NCBI GenBank assembly: GCA_012522475.1
Contig: JAAYKH010000061.1
Location: 1-64,000 of the forward strand
Reading direction: 5' to 3'
Length of the DNA stretch: 64,000 bases
DNA from: Chloroflexota bacterium
GTDB taxonomy: Bacteria; Chloroflexota; Anaerolineae; Anaerolineales; Anaerolineaceae
Below the pieces are notes generated by a model. The model saw only the letters and a program-made list of their open reading frames with translations. It was not told the origin of the DNA and did not search any database. The position numbers and the translations under genes are program-made. Position 1 is the stretch's first letter, and the number at the start of each line of letters is the position of its first letter. Below are positions 8,849-30,042 of this stretch, in pieces.

Positions 8849-9146
8849 GTGAATTCTTCCTGTTAGATTAGGCTCGATACTCAATTATATCCATGTATTT
8901 TTATACAAGAAGGGGTGATTTATCTTTTCAATAAAAGCAACAGGTGACTGCCCAAATAGGGGAAAACATAACCATTAATTTCATTATGTCATTTTATTAA
9001 GCAAATCGTATCCGTTAGAGCCGCAGAAAACAGAAAGGTAGATTGAACTTAGAGGAAAGGGGGCGCAGGCTATTTCGGCGAGTTCTTTGCGGGTTTGATC
9101 CTGTAACCGATTCTTAATCTCGCAAACTGAAGTTAAATTAATCTTG

Positions 9147-10295
9147 CTAAAGCGTTTGTGCACGTGCTCCATGAGCACTTTTAACGATAAAAGCGTTGGG
9201 TTCAACGCCCATCTCCTCCCGGTAGGCGACGCTGACAGCGTGGATAAAATCTGCTTCTTCACTCTTTCCAAGCAGGGCAAGCGCACAACCACCAAACCCT
9301 GCGCCCATCATGCGCGCACCAAAGCAGCCTGGCTGGTTATTTGCTAAATCTACGATTAAGTTTAATGCATCACTGGAAACCTCGTAATCATCCCTCAGGC
9401 TGGCATGACTTTCGTTGATCAGTGATCCCATTAGAATCAGATCCTTGGAGTGCATGGCATCAACAAACTGGATAACTCGATTGTTTTCATTGATGACGTG
9501 TTTCGCTCGTTTCATCAGTTTGGTGGATATTCGTTCCTGGCAGCGAGCTAAATGAGAGGCGCTGGCTTCACGTAAACTGTGTAATCCTAAAATGGCAGTG
9601 ACTTTTTGGATTTCTTCATGTCTGGTATTGTATTCCGAGTTTGTCAGCTCTCTACGAGTGAGGGTGTCCAGCACGACGAAACTTGCCGCTTCAGGGATTG
9701 GGATATATTCATAATCCAACGTTTTACAGTCCAGCAGCACGGCGCAATCGGCTTTTCCAGCTGCTGAGATCAATTGATCCATAATGCCGACATTTACTCC
9801 AACCCAGGCTATCTCTGCCTTTTGAGCAATTAAAGCCAGGGTGGTCGGGTCAATAGATACATTTGAGGCCAAGCAGAAAGTTTTCCCAATTGCGATTTGA
9901 AGCGCTGCAGAGGAAGACAATCCTGCTCCAATCGGGATATTACCTGAAATCACCCCTTGCCAACCCTTTAATGGGTACCCATTTTCAGAAAGAGCCCAGG
10001 CAACGCCCTGAACATATTTTGCCCAAGTGTGGTCTTGTCGCTCCAGTTTGGTTAATTGGGTTTGATAGCGATCATCAAAATCAATTGAATAGATCAAAAC
10101 GCGGTCATCAGGTCTGGGCGAGAACAGGATCATTACATCCCGATCGATAGCCACAGGCAGCACAAACCCTTCTGAATAATCCGTATGTTCCCCAATTAAA
10201 TTAATCCTGCCAGGCGCAACAGCGAACGAAGCAGGTTCTCCTCCAAACTGTTGATAATAAACTGCTCTGATTTGGTCTATTCGCCTCTCATTCAT
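9147..10295 (-). CDS. galK: Galactokinase
   Basis: A 382-residue galactokinase (GHMP family) that phosphorylates galactose at C1 with ATP, the first committed Leloir step. The galactokinase signature GRINLIGEHTDYSEG is near the N-terminus, the GHMP ATP loop PIGAGLSSSAAL follows, and GARMMGAGFGG is near the C-terminus. I start at ATG 10295, preceded by AAAGGA, rather than the ORF-track start at 10313. No galT or galE is adjacent, so the rest of the pathway must be elsewhere. Confidence 0.95.
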   Translation of the reverse strand: MNERRIDQIRAVYYQQFGGEPASFAVAPGRINLIGEHTDYSEGFVLPVAIDRDVMILFSPRPDDRVLIYSIDFDDRYQTQLTKLERQDHTWAKYVQGVAWALSENGYPLKGWQGVISGNIPIGAGLSSSAALQIAIGKTFCLASNVSIDPTTLALIAQKAEIAWVGVNVGIMDQLISAAGKADCAVLLDCKTLDYEYIPIPEAASFVVLDTLTRRELTNSEYNTRHEEIQKVTAILGLHSLREASASHLARCQERISTKLMKRAKHVINENNRVIQFVDAMHSKDLILMGSLINESHASLRDDYEVSSDALNLIVDLANNQPGCFGARMMGAGFGGCALALLGKSEEADFIHAVSVAYREEMGVEPNAFIVKSAHGARAQTL

Positions 10296-14845: not shown

Positions 14846-17800
14846 ATGTCCATCCGTAATTTAATCATCCTCAGCCAGCTCAACCCGCCAGCGCAACGCA
14901 GCCATGTGCTGGCTCGCAAACGGGTTAATCAAAAATTGGAGCAATCGAAGCAGTATCCCTTGACCATCATCGAAGCGGGGACTGGGTATGGGAAAAGTAC
15001 ATCGATCCTTTCTTTTATCAATAATCAGGATAACCCGGTTTACTGGTATACAATTTCAGGCACTGAACGAGACCCAAAACTATTTTTAGCAAAACTTTTC
15101 GCCGCTTTTAACCAGCATGGCCACTCGATTGGTGAAGAAACGCTGAGGATTCTGGATAACCCGGATGCGACGCTTAATGAGGCATTAATTGCTTTTGTTA
15201 ATGTTTTAACAACCAAAATCACGCGGAATGCCTTTCTCGTCCTTGACGATTTTCATCGGGTTGCTGACGTCTCGGATATTGTTGGTTTCGTAGATTGGAT
15301 CATTGAACACCTTTCGCCTAAAATGCATGTGGTGATCGCCACTCGACACGCGGTTGCTTTCCCCTCACTGGTTAAATGGCGGGCCAAGGGTGACGTTTTG
15401 ATCATTACCAGAGATGACCTGGCATTTACAGCAGAGGAAGTTGCTCAACTATTTGAGCAACAATATGGCATTAGCTTATCTGAACCTTCTATTGAACAAT
15501 TGCTCAACGAAACAGAGGGGTGGGTCATAGGTCTGCAAATGATCTGGCAGATCTTGCAGAGCAACCCGGAGTTGACCATCCAGCAGGTATTGGAAGACGA
15601 ACGACACACAAGATCCACATTGTTCGACTATTTAGCCGAAGAAGTATTAGGGAGATTGCCTCTAAATATCCAGGAATTTCTGGTCAAGACTTCGATTTTA
15701 TCAAAGCTTGAAAGTGCAACCTGTGATTTTTTGTTGACCGGCGACAACAGCAACCAGACCTTAGAACAACTTAATCGTTCAGGGCTATTTATTGAAGAAT
15801 TACAACCGGGGGTGTTTCGCTATCATCAAATATTCCGGTCTTTTTTAATAAACCAGCTTCAGGCGAACCCCTCCACATTAATTGATTTGCACTTGAAGGT
15901 TGCCAGTTATTATCGGGCGCACGAGTATTGGGAAGAAGCAATATACCACTTACTTTCTGCCAAGGATTACTTCCAGGTTAATCAAATTTTAGAGAACATT
16001 GGTAAACCATTGATTCAGGACGGGAGACAAGAATCGATTAATTACTGGATTCATGAAATCCCTGAGATATATCGAAAGAACTATCCCTACTTAATTTACC
16101 TTTTGGGTGAGGTCAATCGATACTTGGGGAATTTTGAAGATGCCCTGGAATATTATCATCAGGCAGAGCGCCTTTATCGGGAACGTCAATCTTCTATTGG
16201 TATTTCGCGGGCTTTGCAGGGTCAGGGACAGGTATTTTTAGACACCATTCGACCAATTAATGGGGATCAATTGCTTCAAGACGCCTTAAAACGCCTTGAC
16301 CCAAGAGAAATGCCGAGGGAGGTCGCGGATCTTTTAGTCCTAATTGCCGAAAATCAACTTAATTTAGGCTATCCAGACAATGCAGAGCAATTGCTGTTGC
16401 AAGCCAGCGAATTAATGCCAGACCTTGTACTGGAAACTGACTTTATTCAGGCTCGCGTTTACCTACGAACCGGCAGATTGAGGGAAGGCGTCAATCTTTT
16501 ACTCGCTCGCGAAGCCAACAATCCTTCTTTGCCACAATCACGACCGCAGCGTTTTCACAGGGAAAGCACGCTCTTATTATCTTTGTATTATTCGTTTCTG
16601 GGTGAAGCTGAGCAAGCGGAGATCTATGCTAAACAGGGCATTGAAATTGGTGAATCGTTAAGTTCTAAGTTTGTGCAGGCGGTTGGTTTTATGCGCTTGG
16701 GACATGCACTACTGGTCAGAAACCCGCACCCTTTTTCAAACCAAGTCCTGGTACAGGCGACGGGTTATTTTCAGGCCTCAATTGAGCAGATTGATGTAAC
16801 CCGTATTCATGTTGAACCCCTTTGGGGAATGTGCCGAGCGTTGGGTTACGCCGGTCAATACAGCGAGGCAGAAGAAATAGCGCTTGAATCGCTTTCTATT
16901 GCTGAAAAAGCAGGCGATGAATGGATCGGCGTTTTAATCCGTTTGTCTTTAGGCGCTGGCGCTGTACTCGCTAACAAGCATGACGTAGCGCAGCAGTTTT
17001 TAACCTCAGCTGAAAGCTCAGCAGTTCGTGTCAAAGATACTTTCGCGTTATGTGCATCTCGATTGTGGTTAGCATTAAAAGCTTGGCATCAGGGATATCA
17101 AAATACAGCCTTCAGTTATTTTGAGAAATGTATAGCTTTGATAAGAGAATACGGCTATGAATTCATTTTGACCAGTGAAACCCTTTTGGGGCTTAAAGAC
17201 CGTGAATCGATTTACCCTTTAGTCATAGCTGCATCTTCAAATGGCGTTGAGCAAAAATTCCTAAGCCAAGTTCTTCATCAAAGAGGTTTATCAGATCAAG
17301 AATATCACCCGGGGTACACCTTGTGGGTGCAAACCTTCGGCGACTTTAATGTCTGGCGAGGCGATCAAATCATTCAAACACAGGCTTGGAAGCGAGAAAA
17401 AGCCCGTCTCTTTTTCCAAATCTTGGTTGTTCATCGTGGTAAATGGGTTCATAAAGACCAGATTTTTGAGTGGCTATGGCCCGAATCGGCAAAAGAGAAA
17501 CGTGCCAGTTATTTGAAAGTCATCTTCAATGCGGTCAATCAAGTTCTCGAACCCAACCGACCGCGTGGTGAACCACCATTTTTCATTAACCGTAGCCAGG
17601 ATAATTTCCGTTTGAATCCTAAAGCACGCATCATTGTTGATGCAGATTTGTTTATTACGGAAATGAATCAAGCAACATTAACTGGTTATGAGAACGCATT
17701 TAAATTATACCAAGGACGCTACTTGGTGGATAATCCGGTAAGCGAATGGATTGTCCATGAAGAACAATACTACCATCAACAATTCTTTTTAGCTGCAGAT

Positions 17801-18052
17801 AGATTATTGAACAATCACATTGAAACGGGCAAACTTCAAAAAGCCCTGGATACCACTTACCGGATTGTGAAAGAAGATCCTTACTGGGAAGCAGCCTATC
17901 GCGCCCAGATGTTTATTTTCCATGAACTGGGTCAGACTTCTGTCGTGCACGAGGTATATCGTCGGTGCAAAGCCCTCCTCCAGGAGGATTTAAACGCATC
18001 GGTCTCTGCTGAAACAGAAGCTCTTTATCGAAAACTTGTGTTAGAGCATTAA
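14846..18052 (+). CDS. MalT-like ATPase/TPR transcriptional activator with C-terminal wHTH-BTAD (SARP-type) domains
   Basis: A 1068-residue STAND-type regulator. Near residue 45 is a Walker A (EAGTGYGKSTS), followed by FLVLDDFHRV as Walker B; this AAA/NB-ARC-like module resembles MalT. A long helical TPR stretch (roughly 330-780) follows, with repeats such as ALEYYHQAERLYRER. The C-terminus has an OmpR-like winged helix (FGDFNVWRGDQII, ARLFFQILVVHRGKWVHKDQIFEWLWP) and a BTAD domain ending near EAAYRAQMFIFHELGQ. Proteins of this design bind a ligand and ATP, oligomerise and activate nearby operons. It is immediately upstream of the acyl-CoA/Liv operon, whose promoter carries SARP-style repeats, so that operon is the likely target (inference). 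Confidence 0.9.
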   Translation: MSIRNLIILSQLNPPAQRSHVLARKRVNQKLEQSKQYPLTIIEAGTGYGKSTSILSFINNQDNPVYWYTISGTERDPKLFLAKLFAAFNQHGHSIGEETLRILDNPDATLNEALIAFVNVLTTKITRNAFLVLDDFHRVADVSDIVGFVDWIIEHLSPKMHVVIATRHAVAFPSLVKWRAKGDVLIITRDDLAFTAEEVAQLFEQQYGISLSEPSIEQLLNETEGWVIGLQMIWQILQSNPELTIQQVLEDERHTRSTLFDYLAEEVLGRLPLNIQEFLVKTSILSKLESATCDFLLTGDNSNQTLEQLNRSGLFIEELQPGVFRYHQIFRSFLINQLQANPSTLIDLHLKVASYYRAHEYWEEAIYHLLSAKDYFQVNQILENIGKPLIQDGRQESINYWIHEIPEIYRKNYPYLIYLLGEVNRYLGNFEDALEYYHQAERLYRERQSSIGISRALQGQGQVFLDTIRPINGDQLLQDALKRLDPREMPREVADLLVLIAENQLNLGYPDNAEQLLLQASELMPDLVLETDFIQARVYLRTGRLREGVNLLLAREANNPSLPQSRPQRFHRESTLLLSLYYSFLGEAEQAEIYAKQGIEIGESLSSKFVQAVGFMRLGHALLVRNPHPFSNQVLVQATGYFQASIEQIDVTRIHVEPLWGMCRALGYAGQYSEAEEIALESLSIAEKAGDEWIGVLIRLSLGAGAVLANKHDVAQQFLTSAESSAVRVKDTFALCASRLWLALKAWHQGYQNTAFSYFEKCIALIREYGYEFILTSETLLGLKDRESIYPLVIAASSNGVEQKFLSQVLHQRGLSDQEYHPGYTLWVQTFGDFNVWRGDQIIQTQAWKREKARLFFQILVVHRGKWVHKDQIFEWLWPESAKEKRASYLKVIFNAVNQVLEPNRPRGEPPFFINRSQDNFRLNPKARIIVDADLFITEMNQATLTGYENAFKLYQGRYLVDNPVSEWIVHEEQYYHQQFFLAADRLLNNHIETGKLQKALDTTYRIVKEDPYWEAAYRAQMFIFHELGQTSVVHEVYRRCKALLQEDLNASVSAETEALYRKLVLEH

Positions 18053-18074
18053 TTCTGAACAAAACACGTTGATT

Positions 18075-18103
18075 TGTTACCCCTTCGTAACCGATTTGTA
18101 ATG
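18075..18103 (+). promoter_or_regulatory. Triple 7-bp direct repeat, candidate SARP/BTAD binding site
   Basis: Three heptamers TGTTACC, CGTAACC and TGTAATG start at 18075, 18086 and 18097, each separated by exactly 4 bp (11-bp period). The last ends 9 bp before a TATAAT box. SARP activators are known to bind direct heptamers with this spacing about 8 bp upstream of the -10 element. Confidence 0.65.
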
Positions 18104-18112
18104 CCAGTTTGC

Positions 18113-18118
18113 TATAAT
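18113..18118 (+). promoter_or_regulatory. -10 box of the acyl-CoA / Liv operon promoter
   Basis: A perfect TATAAT. The -35 region at 17-bp spacing is ACCGAT, far from consensus, as expected for a promoter that depends on an activator bound over the -35 region. Confidence 0.6.
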
Positions 18119-18186
18119 ACGTCAAGTTAAGCGCTGAAGTCAACGTTTATTGAAGGGGTTTTAATTATTATCTGAAGAGGAGTTTT

Positions 18187-18951
18187 ATGCGGTTAAGTGG
18201 AAAAATTTGTTTGATTACCGGGGGCGCAGCTGGCATTGGAAAAGCTGCAGCTGAGAAGTTTATTGCTGAAGGGGCACAGGTTGTCATTTGTGACCTGGAT
18301 GAAGATTTAGGGCAAGCAGTTGCCGATGAACTGGGGCACGGGACTTTGTTTTATAAGGTCAACGTAACGGATCGCGGAGAGGTTCAGGCCTGGGTCGATG
18401 ATGTCATTGAGAAGTTTGACCGTGTGGATGTGTTGATTAACAATGCTGGAATCACTCGGGATGGCCTCTTTGTAAAATACAAAGATGGTGCACTGGTCAG
18501 CCAGATGTCAGAGCAAGATTTCGACCTGGTTGTCAATGTTAACCTGAAAGGCGTCTTTAATTGTACGCAAGCTGTTACGCCGCAAATGATAAAACAGGGT
18601 GGTGGGGTGGTCTTAAATGCTTCATCCATCGTTGGTTTATATGGTAATTTTGGGCAAACCAATTATGCAGCGACAAAATTTGGTGTCATTGGTATGACAA
18701 AAACATGGTCTCGTGAATTAGGACAATTTAACATTCGCGTGAACGCTGTCTGCCCGGGTTTCATTCTTACCGAGATGGTTAAGAAAATGCCTGAAAAGAT
18801 TTTAGATGGCTTGGCTGCTAAGACGCCATTGGGCCGGATGGGACTGCCTGAAGATGTTGCCAATCTGTATGCATGGCTGGCCAGTGATGAGGCATCCTAT
18901 ATTCATGGCACAACAATCAGTATTGATGGCGGGATGGTTCTTGGAACTTAG
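18187..18951 (+). CDS. Short-chain dehydrogenase/reductase (FabG / acetoacetyl-CoA reductase-like)
   Basis: A 254-residue classical SDR. The cofactor loop GGAAGIGKAAA, NNAGITRDGLF, the catalytic serine in ASSIVGLYG, the YAATK Tyr-Lys pair and the C-terminal SIDGGMVLG are all standard. GITRDGLF and FGQTNYAATKFGV are typical of 3-oxoacyl-ACP or 3-oxoacyl-CoA reductases, so it likely interconverts 3-oxoacyl and 3-hydroxyacyl thioesters. SD GAAGAGGAG precedes the ATG. It is the first gene of the operon controlled by the repeat-bearing promoter. Confidence 0.88.
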   Translation: MRLSGKICLITGGAAGIGKAAAEKFIAEGAQVVICDLDEDLGQAVADELGHGTLFYKVNVTDRGEVQAWVDDVIEKFDRVDVLINNAGITRDGLFVKYKDGALVSQMSEQDFDLVVNVNLKGVFNCTQAVTPQMIKQGGGVVLNASSIVGLYGNFGQTNYAATKFGVIGMTKTWSRELGQFNIRVNAVCPGFILTEMVKKMPEKILDGLAAKTPLGRMGLPEDVANLYAWLASDEASYIHGTTISIDGGMVLGT

Positions 18952-19003
18952 GCACTAACTGGCTTGAAAAGCTCTCATCCTGTGAACGAAAAGAAAGGAA
19001 GAA

Positions 19004-20014
19004 ATGCAACGATATGCAACCATTATAGGCACCGGAAGATATTTGCCCAAAAATGAAATCTCAAACGAGACTTTTGGTAAGTGGATGGCCAAAGTTAACC
19101 CGGCTTTAGAGACAGTTGTCGGAAAATTTGAAAATAGTTCGGGTATCAAGACACGTTTTTATGCTGATGAAGGTATGGCAACGTCTGATTTGGCTGTTGA
19201 GGCCGCAAAGGATGCTTTAAAGGATGCTGGAATAACCCCCAATGATGTGGATTTGATCATCCTCGGTACGGATTCGCCCGATTACATCACCCCGGCGACC
19301 TCTGTTGTTATCCAAGAGAAGCTTGGCGCAAAAAGAGCAGGCACTTTTGACGTGGGATGCGCTTGTGCCAGTTTCCCAACGGGTTTGGCCTTAGGGGCCG
19401 GGTTAATCGGTACCAACCCGCATTTAAAATACATCCTGGTGATCGGAGCTTACATGATGCATCGCCTGGCCGATTACAAGTCTGATGTGATTAGCTTCTT
19501 TTATGGTGATGGCGCAGGCGCAGCCGTATTGGCGCCCAGTGATCAGCCAGGTTTTGTTTCGTCTGCCTTTTTTGCCGATGGCTCATATTATTCACATTGG
19601 GGCATCTACGCTGGCGGAACAGCAGAACCGGCAACCGTAGAAAACGTCCAATCTGGTAAGACCAAAGTGAAACTGGTGACGGCTTTTCCTCCTGAGGTTA
19701 ACAACGAAGGTTGGCCACAACGCATCCGCGAGGTGGCCCAAAATGGTAATTTCACGATTGATGAGATTGATTTTGTGATTTTCACGCAGGTAAGGCTGAA
19801 CACCATCACGTTGGTGATGGAGGAAATCGGCTTACCCCTTGAAAAAGCGCATTGGATCATGGACAAATGGGGCTACACAGGCTCAGCTTGCTTGCCAATG
19901 GCTTTTGATGATGCTCGTAAATTAGGCAAAATAAAAGCAGGTGACCTGGTCGTTTTTGTAGGTTCAGGCGTTGGTTATAACCAGGCAGCAGTAGCTTTTC
20001 GTATGCCCAAATAA
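19004..20014 (+). CDS. KASIII (FabH)-like thiolase-fold enzyme lacking the catalytic His and Asn
   Basis: A 336-residue thiolase-fold protein of the 3-oxoacyl-ACP synthase III type. The nucleophilic Cys121 is present (GCACASF). Aligning the C-terminal half with E. coli FabH by eye, the HQANLRI histidine position is Thr261 (FTQVRLNTI) and the GNTSAAS asparagine position is Tyr291 (GYTGSACLP). These two residues drive malonyl decarboxylation in FabH, so this protein probably does not do a normal decarboxylative Claisen condensation. It may be an acyltransferase, HMG-CoA-synthase-like enzyme or an acyl-carrier partner. It is 52 bp after the SDR gene and 19 bp before the CoA-transferase gene. Confidence 0.85.
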   Translation: MQRYATIIGTGRYLPKNEISNETFGKWMAKVNPALETVVGKFENSSGIKTRFYADEGMATSDLAVEAAKDALKDAGITPNDVDLIILGTDSPDYITPATSVVIQEKLGAKRAGTFDVGCACASFPTGLALGAGLIGTNPHLKYILVIGAYMMHRLADYKSDVISFFYGDGAGAAVLAPSDQPGFVSSAFFADGSYYSHWGIYAGGTAEPATVENVQSGKTKVKLVTAFPPEVNNEGWPQRIREVAQNGNFTIDEIDFVIFTQVRLNTITLVMEEIGLPLEKAHWIMDKWGYTGSACLPMAFDDARKLGKIKAGDLVVFVGSGVGYNQAAVAFRMPK

Positions 20015-20033
20015 TAGATAGGGATTATTAGAG

Positions 20034-21347
20034 ATGTCTCCCAAACAATTTGCAGACAAATACATTTCACTGGCTGACGCAGTTTCCATGGTTGAATCTC
20101 ACCAGAGTATTGGCGTCGGCATTGCTGGTTCGGAACCCCCGGGGTTATTCAACGCCCTTGCTGCAAGGGCAAGAGATTTAGAAAATGTTCGTTGCTGGAC
20201 GTGCCTGCCAATGCGTTCCTATGAAATTTTCACCAAAGCTGAGATGGCCGGACGAGTTTTCAATGAAAACTGGTTCTACAGTCATTCTGATCGTCAATAC
20301 CACCCTGAGGGTCGGGTGTCTTATGTCCCGAATAATTTACATCGTGCCGCTACAGATAAACTGGTCGCTACCAAGGGACATTTAGATATTTTCTGGGGGA
20401 CAGCCACACCGCCTAATAAAGATGGGTACTTGTCGCTTTCTTTGGGGGTGGTTGTCCAGAAAGATCTGCTGGAAGCTGCAAATTTGAAGATTCTCGAGGT
20501 CAATGCCAACCTTCCGTGGGTTCATGGGGACACCCTGGTGCACATTTCAGAAGTAGATTACCTTGTTGAAAATCATGTTCCATTGGTAGAGCTCATCTCC
20601 CAGCTGCCCACTGAAGTTGAACAAAAAATCGGGGCTTATATCGCAGATTTAATTGAAGATGGGTCTACGATACAACTAGGCATTGGCGGCATTCCGAATG
20701 CGATCACAGCCGATATTATGGAGCGAAAAGATTTAGGTATTCACACCGAAATGCTGGTTGATGGCATGGTTGACCTGATTGAGGCCGGGGTGGTTACAAA
20801 CCGCAAGAAAACACTGCATCCTAGTAAATCGATTGGGGCTTTTGCCTTAGGAACCAGCAAACTCTACGATTTTATTAATGACAACAAAGATGTCGAATTG
20901 CATCGTGGTCGCTACACCAACGATCCTTATGTTATTGCACAGAATAATAAAATGATCAGTGTCAACACCGCTTTACAGGTCGATATTCTCGGGCAAGTGT
21001 GTTCCCAGAGTATCGGAACCCGTCATTTTAGCGGCACGGGTGGTCAGCTAGATACGCATCGAGGCGCCCAGATGTCGCCTGGAGGGCGGGGGATTATCGC
21101 GTTGCGGTCAACTGCTAAAAATGGCGCTATCTCAACCATCGTGCCGACACTGGCCCCCGGAGCAGGAGTCACAGTTCCAAGCCAAGACGTAGACACGATC
21201 ATCACAGAGTTTGGTGTGGCAGAGCTACGTGGTCGTTGCATCAAAGCACGTATGGAAGCTTTGGCAAATATTGCCCACCCGGATTTCAGAGATTGGATCC
21301 GTGATGAAGCACACCGGTTGGGCATTGTTCCAAAAACGGTTTTTTAA
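20034..21347 (+). CDS. Acetyl-CoA hydrolase/transferase family CoA-transferase (4-hydroxybutyrate CoA-transferase-like)
   Basis: A 437-residue family I CoA-transferase. IGIAGSEPPGLFNAL, LGIGGIPNAI and HTEMLVDG (the catalytic glutamate region) match the acetyl-CoA hydrolase / 4-hydroxybutyrate or butyrate CoA-transferase group; the C-terminal half has SGTGGQLDTHRGA and TEFGVAELRG. It moves CoA from acetyl-CoA or another donor to a carboxylic acid, forming a glutamyl-CoA intermediate. In this operon it could activate the acid imported by the Liv-type transporter (inference). Confidence 0.9.
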   Translation: MSPKQFADKYISLADAVSMVESHQSIGVGIAGSEPPGLFNALAARARDLENVRCWTCLPMRSYEIFTKAEMAGRVFNENWFYSHSDRQYHPEGRVSYVPNNLHRAATDKLVATKGHLDIFWGTATPPNKDGYLSLSLGVVVQKDLLEAANLKILEVNANLPWVHGDTLVHISEVDYLVENHVPLVELISQLPTEVEQKIGAYIADLIEDGSTIQLGIGGIPNAITADIMERKDLGIHTEMLVDGMVDLIEAGVVTNRKKTLHPSKSIGAFALGTSKLYDFINDNKDVELHRGRYTNDPYVIAQNNKMISVNTALQVDILGQVCSQSIGTRHFSGTGGQLDTHRGAQMSPGGRGIIALRSTAKNGAISTIVPTLAPGAGVTVPSQDVDTIITEFGVAELRGRCIKARMEALANIAHPDFRDWIRDEAHRLGIVPKTVF

Positions 21348-21365
21348 GTGAAGGAGGCTTGTTCA

Positions 21366-21677
21366 ATGTCGGAATTACTTGGAAAATGGGTTCAAGCTGA
21401 AGATCAGCCCTTTCCTGGGTTATGGTTTGAATTTGAAGAGGACAAAATCTTTCGTGCCGAATATGAACCTATGGGCATTCTATCCGGAGGCACTTACACG
21501 ATTGAGTCTGGGAAAATCACCATGGAACAAACAGAACACACTTTAGGCTTTATCGGTGAGTTTAAAGGGCTTTTCGTTGTGGAGGGCCATCAATTAACCA
21601 TGGCTTTAGCTGCTACCCCGGGTGGAGCACGTCCTCGTGACCTCTCAGATGCCCGAATTTATATCAAAGCAAGTTAA
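21366..21677 (+). CDS. Small conserved-looking protein of unknown function
   Basis: About 103 residues, starting at ATG 21366 behind a strong AAGGAGGC. I do not recognise a family. The alternating pattern of short beta-like stretches (GLWFEFEEDKIF, GGTYTIESGKITME, GLFVVEGHQLTMAL) suggests a small beta-barrel, lipocalin-like fold, a guess only. It lies between CoA-transferase and thiolase genes with tight spacing (18 and 16 bp), so it is translated with them and may bind an acyl or hydrophobic ligand. Confidence 0.7.
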   Translation: MSELLGKWVQAEDQPFPGLWFEFEEDKIFRAEYEPMGILSGGTYTIESGKITMEQTEHTLGFIGEFKGLFVVEGHQLTMALAATPGGARPRDLSDARIYIKAS

Positions 21678-21693
21678 AAAGCAGGTGACATCG

Positions 21694-22956
21694 ATGTCAG
21701 AGTTAAAATGGAAAAAGGGCGTTGCCGTTGCAGGTGTTGGCCTCAGCAAGTTCGGTGCATTTAAAGAGAAGAATTCACGCGACCTTTTTGTTGAGGCCTA
21801 CCAGGATATGATCAATTCTATGCAAAGGTATAACCCTGAAAAGGTTGAGGCCTTTTATCTTGGAAATTTCAGCAGCGATCAATTTGAGAAGCAAGCCCAT
21901 TTAGCACCAATTCTGGCAAGCTGGATCGGCCTTTCTCCGATAACCGCGCTTCGGATTGAAGACGCCTGTGCATCGAGCGGTGTAGCGCTCAGACAGGCTG
22001 CCCTGGCGATCGCCTCGGGGCAATACGACGTCGTTTTAGTGGGCGGTGTTGAGAAGATGACCAGCCTGGAGATCGCAGCTGTAACTGAAGCGCTGGCAAC
22101 TGCAGCTGACACTCAATTTGAAGTCTCAGCGGGATTTACTTTCCCTGGATTTTACGCGGCTATGGCTACAGCTTACATGCATGAATTCCAAGCAAGTCGG
22201 GAGGCTTTTTACCATGTGAGTATCAAAAACCGTAATAACGGCGCGTTAAATGAATATGCTCAATTTGGCCAGACCATTTTCGATATCATGGAAAGCAAAA
22301 AACGGCGCGCAGTTCAAAAGGGACTACCTGTGCCAGAGTGGAAAGATGAAATCGAATTTTTAAGCGACCCCAAAGGCAACCCGATGGTCGCTTGGCCAAT
22401 GACTCTTTTTGACTGTTCGCCTGTTTCGGATGGGGCTGCAGTGGCTTTGCTGGTTTCAGAAGAGATCGCCAGCTCGCTTACGGACACACCGATTTACATG
22501 ATTGGCAGCGGTCAGGCCAGCGATGGTGCTTTGCCGGAGAGAGAAAACCTTTACAGCATTCCAGCAGCTGTAGAAGCAAGCCGTCAAGCCTATCAAATGG
22601 CAAACCTGACGCCAGATGATATTGATGTGGCAGAGGTGCATGATTGTTTCACAATTGCTGAAATTATAGCCACTGAAGATCTGGGTTTCTTTGAGCGCGG
22701 CGAAGGTTGGAAAGCTGCCATCGAAGGAAAGACATCTCGCGACGGAAGTCGCCCAGTAAATACCTCTGGTGGGCTGAAGTCGAAAGGTCATCCTGTTGGC
22801 GCTACAGGTGTTGGTCAGATTGTAGAAATTTGGAAACAGTTGAACGGCCTCGCAGAGGAAAGACAGGTTCAGGGGGATCCAAAAATAGGGTTAACGCACA
22901 ATGTAGGTGGAAGTGGACAAACCTGTGTCGTCAACATTTTTGAGCGGAGAGGGTAG
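21694..22956 (+). CDS. Thiolase family protein (SCP-x / archaeal acetyl-CoA acetyltransferase type)
   Basis: A 420-residue thiolase. The nucleophile is in EDACASSGVALRQA, the second active-site region in VAEVHDCFTIAEI, GGLKSKGHPVGATG holds the histidine and HNVGGSGQTC is near the end. This is the DUF35-associated type seen in archaeal mevalonate complexes and actinobacterial steroid pathways. It cleaves 3-oxoacyl-CoA with CoA or runs the reverse condensation. I start at ATG 21694 with AGGTGA upstream rather than at 21622, which overlaps the preceding gene. The DUF35 gene follows 1 bp after the stop. Confidence 0.88.
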   Translation: MSELKWKKGVAVAGVGLSKFGAFKEKNSRDLFVEAYQDMINSMQRYNPEKVEAFYLGNFSSDQFEKQAHLAPILASWIGLSPITALRIEDACASSGVALRQAALAIASGQYDVVLVGGVEKMTSLEIAAVTEALATAADTQFEVSAGFTFPGFYAAMATAYMHEFQASREAFYHVSIKNRNNGALNEYAQFGQTIFDIMESKKRRAVQKGLPVPEWKDEIEFLSDPKGNPMVAWPMTLFDCSPVSDGAAVALLVSEEIASSLTDTPIYMIGSGQASDGALPERENLYSIPAAVEASRQAYQMANLTPDDIDVAEVHDCFTIAEIIATEDLGFFERGEGWKAAIEGKTSRDGSRPVNTSGGLKSKGHPVGATGVGQIVEIWKQLNGLAEERQVQGDPKIGLTHNVGGSGQTCVVNIFERRG

Positions 22957-22957
22957 A

Positions 22958-23374
22958 ATGGAAAACTATTCAATGAATAGCAATGATTTCTTCAAGGCGT
23001 TAGAGGATGGGGCGTTGATTGGTTCTCGCTGCTTGGACTGCGGTACCATGGCAGTTCCCCAACGCCAAATCTGCTCGAAATGTCTTAGTTCCAAGTCAAA
23101 GATTGTTCACTATTCTGGCAATGGTTCATTGTCAGCCTTTACGGTTATCTCTGTCCCTTCAATGTGGATGTCAGAAGTAGGTTATAACGGAAAAAATCCT
23201 TACTGTGTCGGTGTCGTTGCGTTGGATGAAGGACCGAAAATTTCTGCCCAGATTTTGGATATGGATATCAGCATGCCTGAAAACATTCAAATCGGGACAA
23301 AATTGACCATGACAACGGTTTCACACGGTGAAGATGGGAACCGAAAAATTCACCTGGCGTTTAAACCTGTTTAG
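22958..23374 (+). CDS. DUF35 zinc-ribbon / OB-fold protein, thiolase partner
   Basis: A 138-residue protein with an N-terminal rubredoxin-like zinc ribbon (CLDCG ... CSKC, near residues 23-41) and an OB fold (GNGSLSAFTVISVP). In archaea DUF35 proteins bridge acetoacetyl-CoA thiolase and HMG-CoA synthase and bind the CoA pantetheine. Here it directly follows a thiolase of the matching type and shares the operon with a KASIII-like protein, so a similar complex is plausible. Start at ATG 22958, with GGAGAGGG upstream. Confidence 0.87.
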   Translation: MENYSMNSNDFFKALEDGALIGSRCLDCGTMAVPQRQICSKCLSSKSKIVHYSGNGSLSAFTVISVPSMWMSEVGYNGKNPYCVGVVALDEGPKISAQILDMDISMPENIQIGTKLTMTTVSHGEDGNRKIHLAFKPV

Positions 23375-23389
23375 TTGAGAGGAAACCCC

Positions 23390-24184
23390 TTGCCGCGCAT
23401 TAAAGTTAACAACATAGAACTTTATTACGAGCTTTCAGGTCCGGAAACTGCGCCGGTTTTAGTGCTTTCCAATGGGATTCTGATGGGAACCGATAGTTGG
23501 GCGTTTCAGAAAGCCGTGTTAGAGCAGCATCTGCGGGTGTTGGTTTACGATTGCCGCGGCATGTGGCAGTCTGATCACCCTGAAGGGCCTTATTCGATGC
23601 AAATGCATGCAGATGACCTGGCAAGGTTGTTGGATGGATTGGAGATTGAGAGTGCACATATCGCTGGAATTTCTTATGGTGCGGAAATCAGCATGGTATT
23701 CGCACTGTCTTATCCCCAGAAAACGAAATCTTTGATCATTATTGATGGGGTCAGCGAGATTCATCCATTGCTCAGGGCGCAAACTTATCCTTGGTTGATG
23801 GCTGCAGAACTGGGTGACCCTGAACTGCTATTGAAGACGTCATACCACTTGAATTTTTCCGAAGCGTGGATCAGAGCCAATCAAGCTTTTATTGATGCCT
23901 CGGTTGAAAGATATGCTCAATTGGATATGAAAGCCCTGACCTGGCTGATGAAAGCGTTTTACGAGCTTGATATCACAGATCAGCTTTCTAAAATAAATGC
24001 ACCAACGCTTGTCATTGCTGGAGAGGAAGACTTGATCAAAGGCCGTGAGTATGCAAAAATAATTGCCAAACAAATCTCTTCCAGCGAATTGGTAACAATA
24101 CCTGGCTCAGGCCATGCACTTTGCTTAGAAAAACCTGCCGTTTTAAATACGTTGTTACTGGGTTTCGTAACCAAGAATGCTTGA
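23390..24184 (+). CDS. Alpha/beta hydrolase (3-oxoadipate enol-lactonase-like)
   Basis: A 264-residue alpha/beta hydrolase. SNGILMGTDSW is the oxyanion region, GISYGAEISM the nucleophile elbow, AGEEDLIKG the acid and GSGHALCLEKP the histidine. The arrangement resembles enol-lactonases and C-C bond hydrolases. I choose a TTG start at 23390 because AGAGGA sits 7 nt upstream; the ORF-track start at 23375 directly follows the DUF35 stop. It is the last enzyme gene before the transporter genes and may open a ring or lactone of the imported compound (inference). Confidence 0.82.
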   Translation: MPRIKVNNIELYYELSGPETAPVLVLSNGILMGTDSWAFQKAVLEQHLRVLVYDCRGMWQSDHPEGPYSMQMHADDLARLLDGLEIESAHIAGISYGAEISMVFALSYPQKTKSLIIIDGVSEIHPLLRAQTYPWLMAAELGDPELLLKTSYHLNFSEAWIRANQAFIDASVERYAQLDMKALTWLMKAFYELDITDQLSKINAPTLVIAGEEDLIKGREYAKIIAKQISSSELVTIPGSGHALCLEKPAVLNTLLLGFVTKNA

Positions 24185-24200
24185 CCATCTTAATCATTCA

Positions 24201-24210
24201 GGAGGTGGTT
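24201..24210 (+). promoter_or_regulatory. Distal SD-like leader element of the Liv-type binding protein gene
   Basis: GGAGGTGGTT lies 67 nt upstream of the ATG at 24278, in addition to the gene's own GAAGGAG ribosome-binding site. It falls between the hydrolase stop and the binding-protein start, where an independent promoter has little room, so it may mark a processed, stabilised transcript end. Confidence 0.5.
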
Positions 24211-24277
24211 CATAAAGATAACTACATTAATTTGTATAAAACGAACAACTGTTTTTTAACTATTGAAGGAGTAAAAG

Positions 24278-25711
24278 ATGAAAAAGTTACATTTAACAAT
24301 CCTGACCATTCTGATTATCATTCCATTGCTGGTAACCTCTTGTGTGCAAAAAGTTGAAGAGATGCCTGCGCCGATTGAGGAACCTGAGGTCAAGGAAATC
24401 ATCGTCGAAGAGCCTGAGGTTGAGGAAATTGTCGTTGAAGAACCTGAAGAGGCCGAAAAGGTTGAGGGAGAAGCCGAGCTTGGGCCAGTGTTAAAAATTG
24501 GCCAAATTGGTCAAATGTCGGGTTTGATGGCTCTGTACGGTTTGCAGCAGCAGCGTGGTTTCTTGATGGGCTTGGAATATATGTCCGGTGGTAAAACGGA
24601 TGATCAAGGCCGCTACATCATTGCTAACCGTCCTGTTGAGGTGATCGTTAAAGATGACGAAGGCGACCCTGAGAAGGCCGTAGCCTTAGCGCTTGAGCTG
24701 ATCGAGCGCGACGGCGTTGAATTGATCCAGGGGCCGGTGTCCTCGGCAAGTGCAATTGCATTGGCCAATGTTGCCCTCGAAAACGAGATCATCCTGATGA
24801 TTGATCCCGCAGCCTCGTCCTTTACAACCGGTCCAAATTTCAACCCCTACGTATTTCGAACCGCGCGAACAAACTTTGATGATACGCTGGTCATTGCCAA
24901 ATACCTGGTTGAAAACGTGGGCCCAAATTTTGCTCACATCGGTGTGGATAATGCTTTTGGGCAGGGTTCCGGCATTGCATTGAAATACTCTGTTGAAAAA
25001 TTCGGTGGTGAATTAATTGCTGACATCTATGCACCTTTTGAAACCACAGATTTCACGCCCTATGTTCAGCAGGCGATGGATTCTGGTGCCGAAAACCTTT
25101 TCCTGACCTGGTCTGGCACAGGCTATGTCACACTGTTCCAAAACATGGCCGATATGGGCACATTAGAGGTGATGACTGTCGGTACCGGCTTCGGTGACAA
25201 TGCTTCCTTTGCCGCTGTATTTGGTGATGATACGCTCAACTCAATTGGGTTGAATGTTTATCATTACACTGTCCCAGACAATCTCGTCAATGACTGGCTG
25301 GTGGAAAATCACTACGCGCGCTATGTCGGCGAAGCTGACGGTGCCATCAACGCTTACCCGGACCTGTTTACCGCAGGTGGGATGGCATCAGCAATTGCCC
25401 TTGTAAAAGCGCTTGAGATGACTGACGGAGACACTTCTGGCAAAGCAATGATCTCTGCCTTAGAAGGGCTCAAGTTTGAAGGACCGAAAGGCACCTATTA
25501 CATCCGGCCTGAGGACCATGTTTGTGAACAACCCATGAACATCCTTCAGCTTGTTAACCTGAATCCTGATTTGGATGGTGACGGGATCAACGAGTATCAC
25601 TTCTTTGATACCATTTACGTTTCTGAATACGATGAGTTGGGAGTACCCTGCACATTGATAGGCGAGTACGCCGATCGCTGTGGTGACTTGCCAACCATCC
25701 CAGTCGATTAA
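24278..25711 (+). CDS. Branched-chain amino acid-type ABC transporter substrate-binding lipoprotein
   Basis: A 477-residue Liv-type (Peripla_BP_6) binding protein. The signal peptide ends in the lipobox LVTSC (Cys22). Three imperfect copies of an E-E-P-E-V unit form an acidic tether of about 35 residues before the binding fold, which has IGQIGQMSGLMALYG, the QGPVSSASAIA loop and GVDNAFGQG. The ligand may be an amino acid or an organic or aromatic acid; Liv-type systems are versatile. It is the first transporter gene of the operon, preceded by GAAGGAG. Confidence 0.9.
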   Translation: MKKLHLTILTILIIIPLLVTSCVQKVEEMPAPIEEPEVKEIIVEEPEVEEIVVEEPEEAEKVEGEAELGPVLKIGQIGQMSGLMALYGLQQQRGFLMGLEYMSGGKTDDQGRYIIANRPVEVIVKDDEGDPEKAVALALELIERDGVELIQGPVSSASAIALANVALENEIILMIDPAASSFTTGPNFNPYVFRTARTNFDDTLVIAKYLVENVGPNFAHIGVDNAFGQGSGIALKYSVEKFGGELIADIYAPFETTDFTPYVQQAMDSGAENLFLTWSGTGYVTLFQNMADMGTLEVMTVGTGFGDNASFAAVFGDDTLNSIGLNVYHYTVPDNLVNDWLVENHYARYVGEADGAINAYPDLFTAGGMASAIALVKALEMTDGDTSGKAMISALEGLKFEGPKGTYYIRPEDHVCEQPMNILQLVNLNPDLDGDGINEYHFFDTIYVSEYDELGVPCTLIGEYADRCGDLPTIPVD

Positions 25712-25728
25712 TTAACTCATAGAATTAA

Positions 25729-25754
25729 TTGGGGAGAGGTTAACCTCTCCCCAA
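25729..25754 (+). terminator. Perfect palindrome after the binding-protein gene
   Basis: TTGGGGAGAGGTTAACC and its complement make a perfect 26-nt palindrome 18 bp past the stop codon, followed after 25 nt by a T-run. It likely acts as a partial terminator or 3-prime stabiliser that raises binding-protein mRNA relative to the downstream ABC genes. Confidence 0.55.
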
Positions 25755-25882
25755 GCGTTCTTATCAGGTTGTTTTTTAACCTGGATTGTTTGTTTTGCAG
25801 CACTAACCTCTTTTATATTTTAAATTAATTCATCAGGAATTATTTTGTTTTATGATGGTCACAACCTGTAAGGATATATCGC

Positions 25883-26653
25883 ATGACAAAAGATATCATT
25901 CTCGAAGCAAAAAGCCTCACAAAAGCATTTGGCAGTTTAGTAGCTGTTGATGATGTTAGTATTGCCATCCAGGCTAAAACCATGCATGCCATTATCGGCC
26001 CAAACGGTGCTGGAAAGACGACGCTCTTTAATTTATTAAGTGGTGTATTGCCGCCCACAAAAGGGGAGGTGTTTTATAAGGGTGAGAATATTACCTCTTT
26101 GCCCCCATATAAAAGAGCACATTTGGGAATAGGACGTTCGTATCAGATTACGAATATCTTCCCTAATTTAAGCGTGATTGAAAATGTTCGGCTGGCTGCC
26201 CAGGCAAAAGGAAAGGATAACTTCAAGCTCTTTCGAAAAGTCGACGATTTTCACGAATACGTCAACAAAGCCTATGAAGTTATTGGGATCGTCGATTTAG
26301 CGGGCAGAGCCAATGACTTTGCCAGAGACCTGACTCACGGCGAAAAGCGAAAGCTTGAATTGGGGATTATGCTTGCTTGTGATCCGGAATTGTTGCTATT
26401 TGACGAGCCAACAGCTGGCATGTCATCCGATCAGGTGCCTGAATTGATAAGTATCATCAATCAAATCGTGCAACAGCGTGAACGTACAGCAATTTTAGTG
26501 GAACATCGGATGGACGTTGTAATGTCAATTTCTGATGTCGTCACGGTTATGAACCAGGGCAGAATTTTAGCAGAAGGCGCGCCAAGTGACATCGCTAATA
26601 ATCAACAGGTCCAAACAGCTTATTTGGGTGATTTATATGGAGAGCTGGCATGA
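25883..26653 (+). CDS. livG: Liv-type ABC transporter ATP-binding protein (LivG-like)
   Basis: A 256-residue ABC ATPase. Walker A GPNGAGKTT, a signature region in which LTHGEKRKLELG replaces the usual LSGGQ (typical of LivG), and Walker B LLLFDEPTAGM are present. The C-terminal AYLGDLYGE tail is typical of LivG. It powers import together with the LivF-like partner, whose start codon overlaps this stop (ATGA). Confidence 0.92.
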   Translation: MTKDIILEAKSLTKAFGSLVAVDDVSIAIQAKTMHAIIGPNGAGKTTLFNLLSGVLPPTKGEVFYKGENITSLPPYKRAHLGIGRSYQITNIFPNLSVIENVRLAAQAKGKDNFKLFRKVDDFHEYVNKAYEVIGIVDLAGRANDFARDLTHGEKRKLELGIMLACDPELLLFDEPTAGMSSDQVPELISIINQIVQQRERTAILVEHRMDVVMSISDVVTVMNQGRILAEGAPSDIANNQQVQTAYLGDLYGELA

Positions 26654-27417
26654 AAGAAAAGATTCCTCGGGAAGACATCCTCATTGTTGACAATATCCAT
26701 ACGTTTATTGGTCAATTTCACATCTTGGAAGGCGTTTCGGTCAGGGTGCCTAAGGGGTCAATAACGGTTTTACTGGGACGCAATGGTGCCGGCAAAACGA
26801 CAACGCTTAAATCTATTTTAGGCCTGACGCCGCCTCAGGAGGGTAAGGTGATTTTCGAGGGTGCTGAAATTCAGGGCAAACGTGCCTTCAACGTAGCCAA
26901 CCTGGGAATTGGCTATGTGCCTGAACACCGTGCCATTTTTCGGGCTCTATCGGTATTGGAGAACTTGAAACTGGCGGAGCGTAAAAAGGGTGACTTTGAA
27001 CGCAGCGCTGATTTTATTTTCGAGCTGTTTCCAGATTTGAAGCGTTTATCCAAATTGCCCGGCAACCATCTTTCAGGCGGTCAACAACAGATGCTGGCCG
27101 TCGCTCGGGCGTTAGTCCCTGAAAACAAATTGCTTTTAATCGATGAGCCCAGTGAGGGGTTGGCGCCTATTCTTATTCAGCAAATGATGGAAGCTATCCG
27201 GGTATTAAGCGAAAAAACAACCATCTTGCTGGTGGAACAAAATTTCATCATGGCCAGCCAACTTGCACAACAGTTTGTCATTATTGATGATGGACAGAGT
27301 GTCCGCGATGGTTCGATGACCGATTTAGTGAATGATACCGGCATGATACATCAGTATTTGGGCGCCAGCATTAAAACACGTAAAGAATTGGAGATGGAAC
27401 ATGAAGCCCAAGCGTAA
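26650..27417 (+). CDS. livF: Liv-type ABC transporter ATP-binding protein (LivF-like)
   Basis: A 255-residue ABC ATPase. Walker A GRNGAGKTT, GIGYVPEHRAIF (typical of LivF), the signature LSGGQQQMLAVARAL and Walker B LLLIDEPSEGLAP are present. It overlaps livG by 4 bp and the following permease gene by 17 bp, so all three are translationally coupled. Confidence 0.92.
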   Translation: MKEKIPREDILIVDNIHTFIGQFHILEGVSVRVPKGSITVLLGRNGAGKTTTLKSILGLTPPQEGKVIFEGAEIQGKRAFNVANLGIGYVPEHRAIFRALSVLENLKLAERKKGDFERSADFIFELFPDLKRLSKLPGNHLSGGQQQMLAVARALVPENKLLLIDEPSEGLAPILIQQMMEAIRVLSEKTTILLVEQNFIMASQLAQQFVIIDDGQSVRDGSMTDLVNDTGMIHQYLGASIKTRKELEMEHEAQA

Positions 27418-28894
27418 AAAATTAATTACAACTTTACTTGTTGCTGTTGCCGTTATTGCAGTCATTGCGGGTCTTTACTTGTATGCTGGTAAGGAGCCAT
27501 TTATCCGCACAACCTTATCCGGTTTGACCTTAGGCTCATTATTCTTTATGGTAGCTGCGGGGTTATCTCTGATTTTTGGGTTAATGGATGTATTAAATTT
27601 TGCTCATGGTGCGCTATTTATGTTGGGCGCTTATATGGGTTGGCAGTTATACACCAACCCCACCTTTATTTTTGGAATGTTACCGACAGTAACTGCCTTT
27701 ACATGTGGGGTGTTGGTTTCACCGGTCATTAAGCCATTTTTGATCCGTTGGGAGCTTCCTGAGCAATGGCAAAAAACATTGCCAAAGATTGCCTACGTTC
27801 TGGCAATTGTGCTACTTATCCTGGCTTTTCTAAACTTTAATATCATGGAGTTAGCCAGTACGGCAATGGTTGCTGCAACAACAACGATGGTTGGAAACCC
27901 GCTGGCTGAGATTACACCCCAAGAGCCACTTGCCCAATTTTGGTATCGTCCCGTATTGTTAATTATTTCTGGTTTGTTGGTTGCTTTTGCATCATCTAAA
28001 CCAGGCGTAAAGACTGAATTTGCACCTAAAGAAGACCTTTTAAAAAAGGCAGTTCCTTCGATACTGTTGTTTGCTCTAACAATCATCGCCACTTTATTTC
28101 GAGAATCTGCACCCATTGCGATCCTCTTGATGAACGGGAACTTGCGATTTTTAATCGCGATTTTTGTGGCAGTCGCTTTTGGTTTTATGTTTGGAGCCTT
28201 GATAGAAATCACTTTGATCAGGCCATTATATGTGCGGCCATTCTTTATTGTGTTGATGACCTTGGGACTTAGTTTTGTCATTCGAGAGCTGGTCCAGTTG
28301 CTTTGGGACCCTTTAGCATATCAAATGGTACGCCCACCGCTTTTTGCGCAATCTGGTAAAGCTGCCAGCTTGCTCGAGTGGCTTCAAAACGGAAACGCAA
28401 CCATTAATATCTCCGGGGTTACTTTCCCAACTTATCGGTTATTTGTGATCCTCCTGGGCTTTTTAATGTTTGTGATTGTAACCATCATCATGACAAAATC
28501 GCGGTTAGGAATGATCATTCGAGCAGGCGTTCAGGATCCACAGATGGTGGAAGCCCTGGGCATTAATGTTAAGCGCGTGTTTACCTTTGTTTTCGCCTTT
28601 GGGGTCGCCTTAGCAACGCTAGGAGGTATTGGCGCCGGGCCGTTCCTGCCTATTCAGCCCCTTATGGGCGATCAATTTCAAATGCTGGGATTCATCACCG
28701 TTGTCATCGGTGGCATGGGCAGTTATGTAGGCGCTTTTGTGGGTGCGATCATTCTCGGCATGGGGCGTGCGTTTGGTGATTATTTTGCGCTCAAACTCTC
28801 ACTCTCACCAGCAGTTTCTGAAGCATCGACAGTTATTATCATGGTCATTGTCCTGCTCATCAAACCGCAAGGCCTTTTTGGTAAAAAGGAGTAA
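27401..28894 (+). CDS. livH: Liv-type ABC transporter permease (LivH-like, with enlarged central region)
   Basis: A 497-residue inner-membrane permease, longer than the usual ~290-residue LivH. The N-terminal LSLIFGLMDVLNFAHGALFMLGAY and the C-terminal GRAFGDYFALKL... IKPQGLFG are standard. About 200 residues (roughly 85-280) between them contain extra hydrophobic helices and a loop, so the extra length is an insertion. The coupling-loop region ALGINVKRVFTFVFAFG is intact. The start overlaps livF. Confidence 0.88.
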   Translation: MKPKRKKLITTLLVAVAVIAVIAGLYLYAGKEPFIRTTLSGLTLGSLFFMVAAGLSLIFGLMDVLNFAHGALFMLGAYMGWQLYTNPTFIFGMLPTVTAFTCGVLVSPVIKPFLIRWELPEQWQKTLPKIAYVLAIVLLILAFLNFNIMELASTAMVAATTTMVGNPLAEITPQEPLAQFWYRPVLLIISGLLVAFASSKPGVKTEFAPKEDLLKKAVPSILLFALTIIATLFRESAPIAILLMNGNLRFLIAIFVAVAFGFMFGALIEITLIRPLYVRPFFIVLMTLGLSFVIRELVQLLWDPLAYQMVRPPLFAQSGKAASLLEWLQNGNATINISGVTFPTYRLFVILLGFLMFVIVTIIMTKSRLGMIIRAGVQDPQMVEALGINVKRVFTFVFAFGVALATLGGIGAGPFLPIQPLMGDQFQMLGFITVVIGGMGSYVGAFVGAIILGMGRAFGDYFALKLSLSPAVSEASTVIIMVIVLLIKPQGLFGKKE

Positions 28895-28902
28895 TAAATA
28901 TT

Positions 28903-30042
28903 ATGGTCAATCGTCGAGATGCAATCAAGAAAAACAAACTTGTGAGCTCCATGAAGGGCGAGGGGACACTCTTGGTGCTGCTTGTTGTATTGATTTTATT
29001 CCCTTTTGTGATGAGCTTCATCACCGGAACCGGTATGAACGAAGGCGTTACAAAATTCTGGCAGGGACAGTTAATTATCTTTTTTATCATGGCAGTTTTT
29101 GCCATGAGTTATGATCTTTTGATGGGGTTTGGCGGCATCCTTTCGTTTGGGCACGCAGCCAGCTTTGGTGGGGGGGCCTATACCTTTGCCCTGTTAATGA
29201 AACATGTTGTGCCACCTATAACACATAATTATCGCATTACCATTGGCAGTGTCAATATCACCGATGCTATCGTACTAATCGTTGTTTTTCTGGTTGTACT
29301 GCTCGTTTCAATCTTAATCGGGCTTTTATTTGCAGCCACTTCCATTCGACTTAAGGGCGCCTATTTCGCGATGTTGACTTTGGCATTAGGGTCGGCCATG
29401 CACATGTTGGTTAAAGCCACAGACTTTCACAAGTGGACCGGCGCTGACGAAGGCTTACATGGCGTACCGGTGCCTGTGTGGTTGAACCCTACGCAAAACA
29501 GGCTGACTGTTTATTTTGTTTCCTTAGCGTTTTTAATCATCTGCTACCTGTTAATGAAACGAATGGTCAATTCACCTACCGGGCGCGTAATCATTGCAAA
29601 CCGTGAAAATGAAGACCGCATGCGAATGATCGGATATAACCCCGTGACGTACCGAACGATCGCCTTTGTATCAGCATCAATTTTCGCCGGTTTTGCTGGT
29701 GCCCTGTATTCGATTTGGAATACAAGCGCAACACCGACAATGGTCTCAGCGGTGATGACAGTAAATGCCCTGATTATTACCATTCTGGGGGGTATGGGCA
29801 CCCTGGTTGGCGCTATCCTAGGTGCTGCCATCATGCAAGTTATCAGCCAATTCTTCTACACCTGGTTTGGTGCTCGCTGGCCGCTGGTCTTTGGTGTTCT
29901 TTTTATTTTGATTGTCATGTTTTTGCCCTACGGCATCATTGGTACCTGGCGTATGAAAAAGCATGATCTTAAGCAGTTCTTTGAGCAGGGCAAGCGTATC
30001 ATCGCTCAGAAAAAAACTCTCAACCAGGAAGAGGAAGCATAA
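28903..30042 (+). CDS. livM: Liv-type ABC transporter permease (LivM-like)
   Basis: A 379-residue multi-spanning permease. YDLLMGFGGILSFGHAASFGGGAYTFA is the conserved N-terminal motif, followed by LKGAYFAMLTLALG and the coupling-loop region RMIGYNPVTYRTIAFVSAS. It pairs with the LivH-like protein 8 bp upstream to form the channel. It closes the operon and a probable terminator follows. Confidence 0.92.
   Translation: MVNRRDAIKKNKLVSSMKGEGTLLVLLVVLILFPFVMSFITGTGMNEGVTKFWQGQLIIFFIMAVFAMSYDLLMGFGGILSFGHAASFGGGAYTFALLMKHVVPPITHNYRITIGSVNITDAIVLIVVFLVVLLVSILIGLLFAATSIRLKGAYFAMLTLALGSAMHMLVKATDFHKWTGADEGLHGVPVPVWLNPTQNRLTVYFVSLAFLIICYLLMKRMVNSPTGRVIIANRENEDRMRMIGYNPVTYRTIAFVSASIFAGFAGALYSIWNTSATPTMVSAVMTVNALIITILGGMGTLVGAILGAAIMQVISQFFYTWFGARWPLVFGVLFILIVMFLPYGIIGTWRMKKHDLKQFFEQGKRIIAQKKTLNQEEEA

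Follow-up and report, generated by a model that had tools for sequence, protein, structure and literature searches.

A giant sensor-regulator of Anaerolineae very probably activates a nearby operon for uptake and breakdown through two or three 11-base repeats held at a fixed distance from the promoter. The layout is known from antibiotic regulators of Streptomyces, and here it comes with the opposite order of protein parts. In the window (the whole 64,000-nucleotide stretch of DNA that was analysed), sequence comparison makes it highly probable that 18073-18118 is the operator-promoter of an import/catabolic operon at 18187-30042 and that the protein encoded upstream (14846-18052) acts as the activator dedicated to it. 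The features concerned are as follows.

14846..18052, + strand: regulator, 1068 amino acids, with a MalT-type STAND ATPase (residues ~7-390), a TPR region and a C-terminal OmpR-type wHTH plus BTAD (~829-1068)
18073..18080, + strand: distal repeat TTTGTTAC, an optional third copy (18/46 family operons)
18084..18091, + strand: middle repeat TTCGTAAC, universal in family operons
18095..18102, + strand: proximal repeat TTTGTAAT, universal in family operons; the -10 begins 10 bp on
18110..18118, + strand: extended -10 element TGCTATAAT, with the -10 hexamer at 18113-18118
18187..18951, + strand: FabG-like short-chain dehydrogenase/reductase (SDR), first gene of the operon
19004..20014, + strand: KASIII/HMG-CoA-synthase-like condensing enzyme
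20034..21347, + strand: acyl-CoA:carboxylate CoA-transferase-like protein
21622..22956, + strand: SCP2-type thiolase
22907..23374, + strand: DUF35/ChsH2-like Zn-ribbon OB protein, thiolase partner
23375..24184, + strand: alpha/beta hydrolase
24278..30042, + strand: branched-chain-amino-acid-type ABC importer, gene order kept in relatives; binding protein 24278-25711, two ATPases 25883-27417, two permeases 27401-30042

The sequence-only reading had described three heptamers with exact 4-bp gaps and an 11-bp period, the last ending 9 bp before TATAAT, and the window sequence bears this out: TGTTACC (18075-18081), CGTAACC (18086-18092) and TGTAATG (18097-18103) precede TATAAT at 18113-18118, which lies 9 bp from the heptamer TGTAATG and 10 bp from the 8-mer TTTGTAAT. 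The order within 18073-18118 is TTTGTTACccc TTCGTAACcga TTTGTAAT, 10 bp and TATAAT, and the SDR gene follows from 18187. The regulator had correctly been given 1068 residues (open reading frame 14846-18052), but its gene and the first heptamer are separated by 22 bp rather than 23 bp. The -10 is a perfect TATAAT with a TG extension, no TTGACA-like -35 was found on the + strand, and the transcript start is predicted near 18125. We rejected an attenuator/terminator reading, as a terminator-like hairpin was not found.

In a single sequence the repeat alone is unremarkable because about 90 other + strand positions of the window, read as three heptamers at 11-bp spacing, reach a pairwise identity of at least 13, the value of the site itself being 13/21; the earlier case could therefore not rest on one sequence. 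The exact arrangement has a single occurrence in the whole 2.26-Mb genome and, scored against the family consensus, the site is the window's best (21/24, runner-up 16). A wider regulon in the same genome was rejected: a search returned 22 matches with three or fewer mismatches, against 49 for a reversed-pattern control, and apart from the two overlapping pairs of the site itself only one match came down to 2 mismatches.

Phylogenetic footprinting turns this weak single-genome evidence for the putative operator into strong evidence. We looked for both the regulator and the SDR gene across 147 genomes from the same family (Anaerolineaceae). An SDR ortholog was present in 48, the region upstream of it was readable in 47, and 46 of these carried the operon; the exception (G102) has a lone SDR relative and lacks the operon, the regulator and the motif. 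Family operons start with SDR, KAS and CoA-transferase genes, and most continue, contig permitting, to the hydrolase and Liv-type importer genes. All 46 operons have two or more TTTGTAAC-like 8-mers, with an 11-bp period, upstream of SDR, and 18 have three; the count includes related genomes, although the flanks have diverged to background. The conserved unit consists of the 8-mer TTTGTAAC and 3 variable bases. A two-repeat score of at least 14 (of 16) was reached by 42 of the 46 operons and by none of 2,300 dinucleotide shuffles, and across the 46 operons most columns of the two TTTGTAACC blocks (11-bp period) and of the -10 carry 1-2 bits, compared with ~0.1 bits in the flanks. The TA of the -10 falls exactly 10 bp past the last repeat in all 46, with two or three repeats alike; at the same fixed offset, hexamer position 6 is T in 37 and the TG of an extended -10 is present in 30. 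A -35 box is absent from these sites in the 46 operons (0-1 of 6 TTGACA matches at the 17-bp -35 position). The sequence-only reading would have been refuted by a lack of heptamer conservation in relatives keeping the regulator-operon pair, and it survived this test. The claim of a triple-heptamer promoter was right in that the repeats are real, but the conserved putative operator is a double repeat, the third copy being confined to the 18 operons.

The position of the regulator gene varies among relatives and that of the repeats does not. Repeats still precede the SDR gene where the regulator lies 51-77 kb away (G099, G084 and G085), on a separate contig (G086) or 1.4 kb away (G026). The same holds in eight genomes in which the regulator stands convergently at the far end of the operon (G123, G128, G122, G134, G130, G133, G030 and G051), a position that in G130, G133 and G030 was read from a separate contig also holding the end of the importer genes; in G088, contig ends mask the linkage of regulator and operon. 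Because the repeats precede SDR wherever the regulator sits, the site belongs to the operon and not to the tail of the regulator gene. Among the unlinked genomes that we looked at, the genes upstream of the site share no regulator. Autoregulation was rejected, as none of 38 genomes has the motif ahead of the regulator gene. So was the candidacy of G051 as a site without a regulator: there the contig opens within the final 33 codons of the regulator, beside LivM, and the remnant is 67% identical to the G122 ortholog. As the regulator is cut by the contig start (C218, L323:1-102), automated presence/absence calls are misleading here.

To assess the distribution beyond the family, we scanned the class with a motif trained on the family alone and with the -10 left out. 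Regulator orthologs were found in 88 of 396 sampled class genomes. Forward-strand sites above 4.4 bits were present in 31 of 56 testable class loci, whereas 59 of 60 loci scored below 1.8 bits on the reverse-strand control (maximum 5.0). These 31 sites come from other families and were not used in building the motif, and 29 of them have TA exactly 10 bp beyond the last repeat (TA...T in 27). Of 43 genomes that have the regulator, 29 also have the site, versus 2 of the 13 without a regulator (Fisher p=0.001, a statistic that ignores shared ancestry). These two, G409 and G177, in which the regulator was not found, count against the pairing, as do the 14 regulator-bearing genomes with no site found before the SDR relative, although some of the 14 have contig breaks or a different first gene and in some a weak site is visible. 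Several genomes from other families have a KAS-like gene at the head of the operon; there the site lies before the KAS-like gene, often immediately after the stop codon of the regulator. The suggestion of a defined regulator-site pair in a Chloroflexota-like organism holds as to the organism (Anaerolineaceae, Chloroflexota) and the co-occurring site, which support the pairing; that the regulator itself binds there is inferred. Overall, we think it likely that regulator and operator form a pair with a single target that extends across the class Anaerolineae, a MalT-type sensor here driving a SARP output module at the C-terminus. SARP-mode polymerase recruitment, in which repeats in phase with an extended -10 take the place of the -35, would then operate outside Actinobacteria, with reversed domain order and in catabolic control.

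The regulator combines parts of two families. Its N-terminal half aligns to MalT, the LAL/STAND activator of the maltose genes, with the MalT profile covering residues 7-515 (2.2e-72; at 244 bits it falls short of 537, the MalT equivalog cut-off) and the MalT crystal chain 8bob matching residues 7-387 (5.5e-34). MalT is an activator of an uptake/catabolic system. Pfam identifies AAA, TPR and BTAD (9e-16 at 945-1064). The MalT-type STAND ATPase and TPR region are those of the MalT/LAL family, but the C-terminal LuxR-type HTH of MalT is replaced by an OmpR-type wHTH-BTAD, and the direct-repeat sites differ correspondingly. A profile of the last ~240 residues aligns nearly full length to the AfsR SARP domain (8hvr; AfsR residues 48-282; 5.9e-9), with shorter hits to designed TPR proteins because the BTAD part is helical; the wHTH profile also matches KdpE and PhoB weakly. 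An AlphaFold2 model of the C-terminal part (pLDDT 93.8) has only AfsR and EmbR as Foldseek PDB hits at E below 0.001 (TM 0.66-0.72). By PF03704 search, the genome holds exactly one BTAD protein, and relatives hold two to seven.

Several hallmarks of SARPs are present. Pfam, the AfsR profile and the predicted fold agree on an OmpR-type wHTH followed directly by BTAD, the putative operator is a direct repeat with 11-bp periodicity, and the 3' repeat, which in SARP promoters lies ~8 bp from the -10 over a poor -35, is here 9 bp (heptamer) or 10 bp (8-mer) away. Others differ: the SARP domain is N-terminal in SARPs, whereas here wHTH-BTAD is C-terminal and ATPase/TPR N-terminal, and SARPs control antibiotic or secondary-metabolite genes in actinomycetes, whereas the predicted target here is a thiolase/CoA-transferase/ABC-importer operon in Anaerolineaceae. 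Given its reversed domain order and MalT-like sensor, the protein is of the same class as SARPs, as it had earlier been described, in its output domain (wHTH-BTAD fold) only. The regulator stands outside SARPs as defined by an N-terminal module and antibiotic genes, and we infer a SARP-like working in a different architecture.

A second orthologous group of ~1080-residue MalT-type proteins with a C-terminal wHTH-BTAD (L287-L306) precedes, in many genomes that we looked at, a ~196-residue gene and a ~380-residue gene (DUF5317 and GAF + HD-GYP in the cases tested; for example, L302:3483-6725 with 7175-7768 and 8098-9273). Generalisation to this group was rejected, as no conserved 11-bp repeats were found within 700 bp downstream.

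The spacing matches the published SARP layout, as the sequence-only reading had held (PMC10936776, PMC5930380). In the AfsR complex, two adjacent protomers occupy a pair of 11-bp repeats between -40 and -19; contacts are made with the first 8 bp of each repeat, and the arrangement over the -35 region resembles sigma adaptation (PMC10936776). Taking the -10 here to lie at -12 to -7, the universal repeats span -41 to -20, 1 bp off the afs box layout. AfsR, a large SARP of Streptomyces coelicolor acting on the afs box at afsS, also shares a wHTH-BTAD output with NOD and TPR parts, and two 11-bp direct repeats over the -35 region, with the first 8 bp of each repeat conserved and a box centre at about -30 (PMC10936776). 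In contrast, wHTH-BTAD is N-terminal in AfsR and C-terminal here, the half-sites differ, and the predicted target is an import/catabolic operon in the phylum Chloroflexota. The main operator of the SARP-LAL protein PimR has three heptamers with 4-bp spacers, and two repeats suffice as a binding box (PMC5930380), both matched by the repeat layout here; unlike here, that operator has no -35 overlap, the SARP domain is N-terminal, the consensus is CGGCAAG and the target is polyene biosynthesis. In the open literature we found no relevant work on a C-terminal BTAD with a MalT sensor or on SARPs in Chloroflexota.

Sequence analysis established the conserved repeats, their fixed phasing to the -10, their co-occurrence with the regulator, its domain content and its predicted fold; the proposed mechanism goes further. 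The N-terminal MalT-type ATPase/TPR part would sense a signal, probably a pathway substrate or intermediate, and oligomerise. The C-terminal wHTH-BTAD domains would next line up along one face of the DNA, each bound to one 11-bp repeat, covering the place of a -35 box and recruiting RNA polymerase to an extended -10 that lacks one. Co-occurrence, the single BTAD protein of the genome and the geometry of the site point to the regulator as the probable binder, and activation and the kind of inducer are suggested by analogy with the two families. An AfsR-like recruitment complex under a MalT-like sensor is the most economical reading.

Three alternatives were weighed against this. That the repeats arose by chance and have no function, as the many equally self-similar triplets of the window might suggest, is refuted, as far as sequence comparison can do so, because the repeats are conserved and phased across 46 family operons plus some 30 more in the class, and its probability is negligible. 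Less remote, and still improbable, is that the operator is real but bound by another OmpR/PhoB-family response regulator, with the giant regulator a mere neighbour. Direct repeats of 11 bp are typical of OmpR-type winged helices and are bound by response regulators of the OmpR/PhoB type too, and the weak resemblance of the wHTH to KdpE and PhoB fits such a binder. However, presence of the site tracks the giant regulator even when the genes are apart, unlinked genomes have no conserved regulator gene beside the site, and the phasing to the -10 is of the SARP type.

The regulator might also bind and repress, blocking RNA polymerase at what is a good extended -10 promoter. The overlap of the repeats with the -35 region and the perfect -10 would suit a repressor, but the relatives' promoters without a -35, the rigid 10-bp phasing whatever the repeat number, and BTAD/SARP biology favour contact activation, and we rate repression slightly lower than a different binder. 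Activation by the giant regulator remains the preferred reading, and suggests that the geometry of SARP recruitment reaches beyond antibiotic control in Actinobacteria.

Regulator-site pairs seem hardly described for Anaerolineaceae, for which we found no relevant paper in the open literature. The predicted pair is resolved to the base and conserved across much of the class, and a cultured member, Bellilinea caldifistulae GOMI-1, carries the locus (L037). The motif could be used to predict targets of other C-terminal BTAD giants.

Within the operon, the proximity of the KASIII/HMGCS-like, SCP2-type thiolase and DUF35 genes (19004-23374) resembles the archaeal thiolase/HMGCS/DUF35 complex. Between the CoA-transferase and thiolase genes lies a small open reading frame (21348-21677; 109 amino acids, GTG start), in a gap that is of similar size in many relatives and ~1.1 kb in some others.
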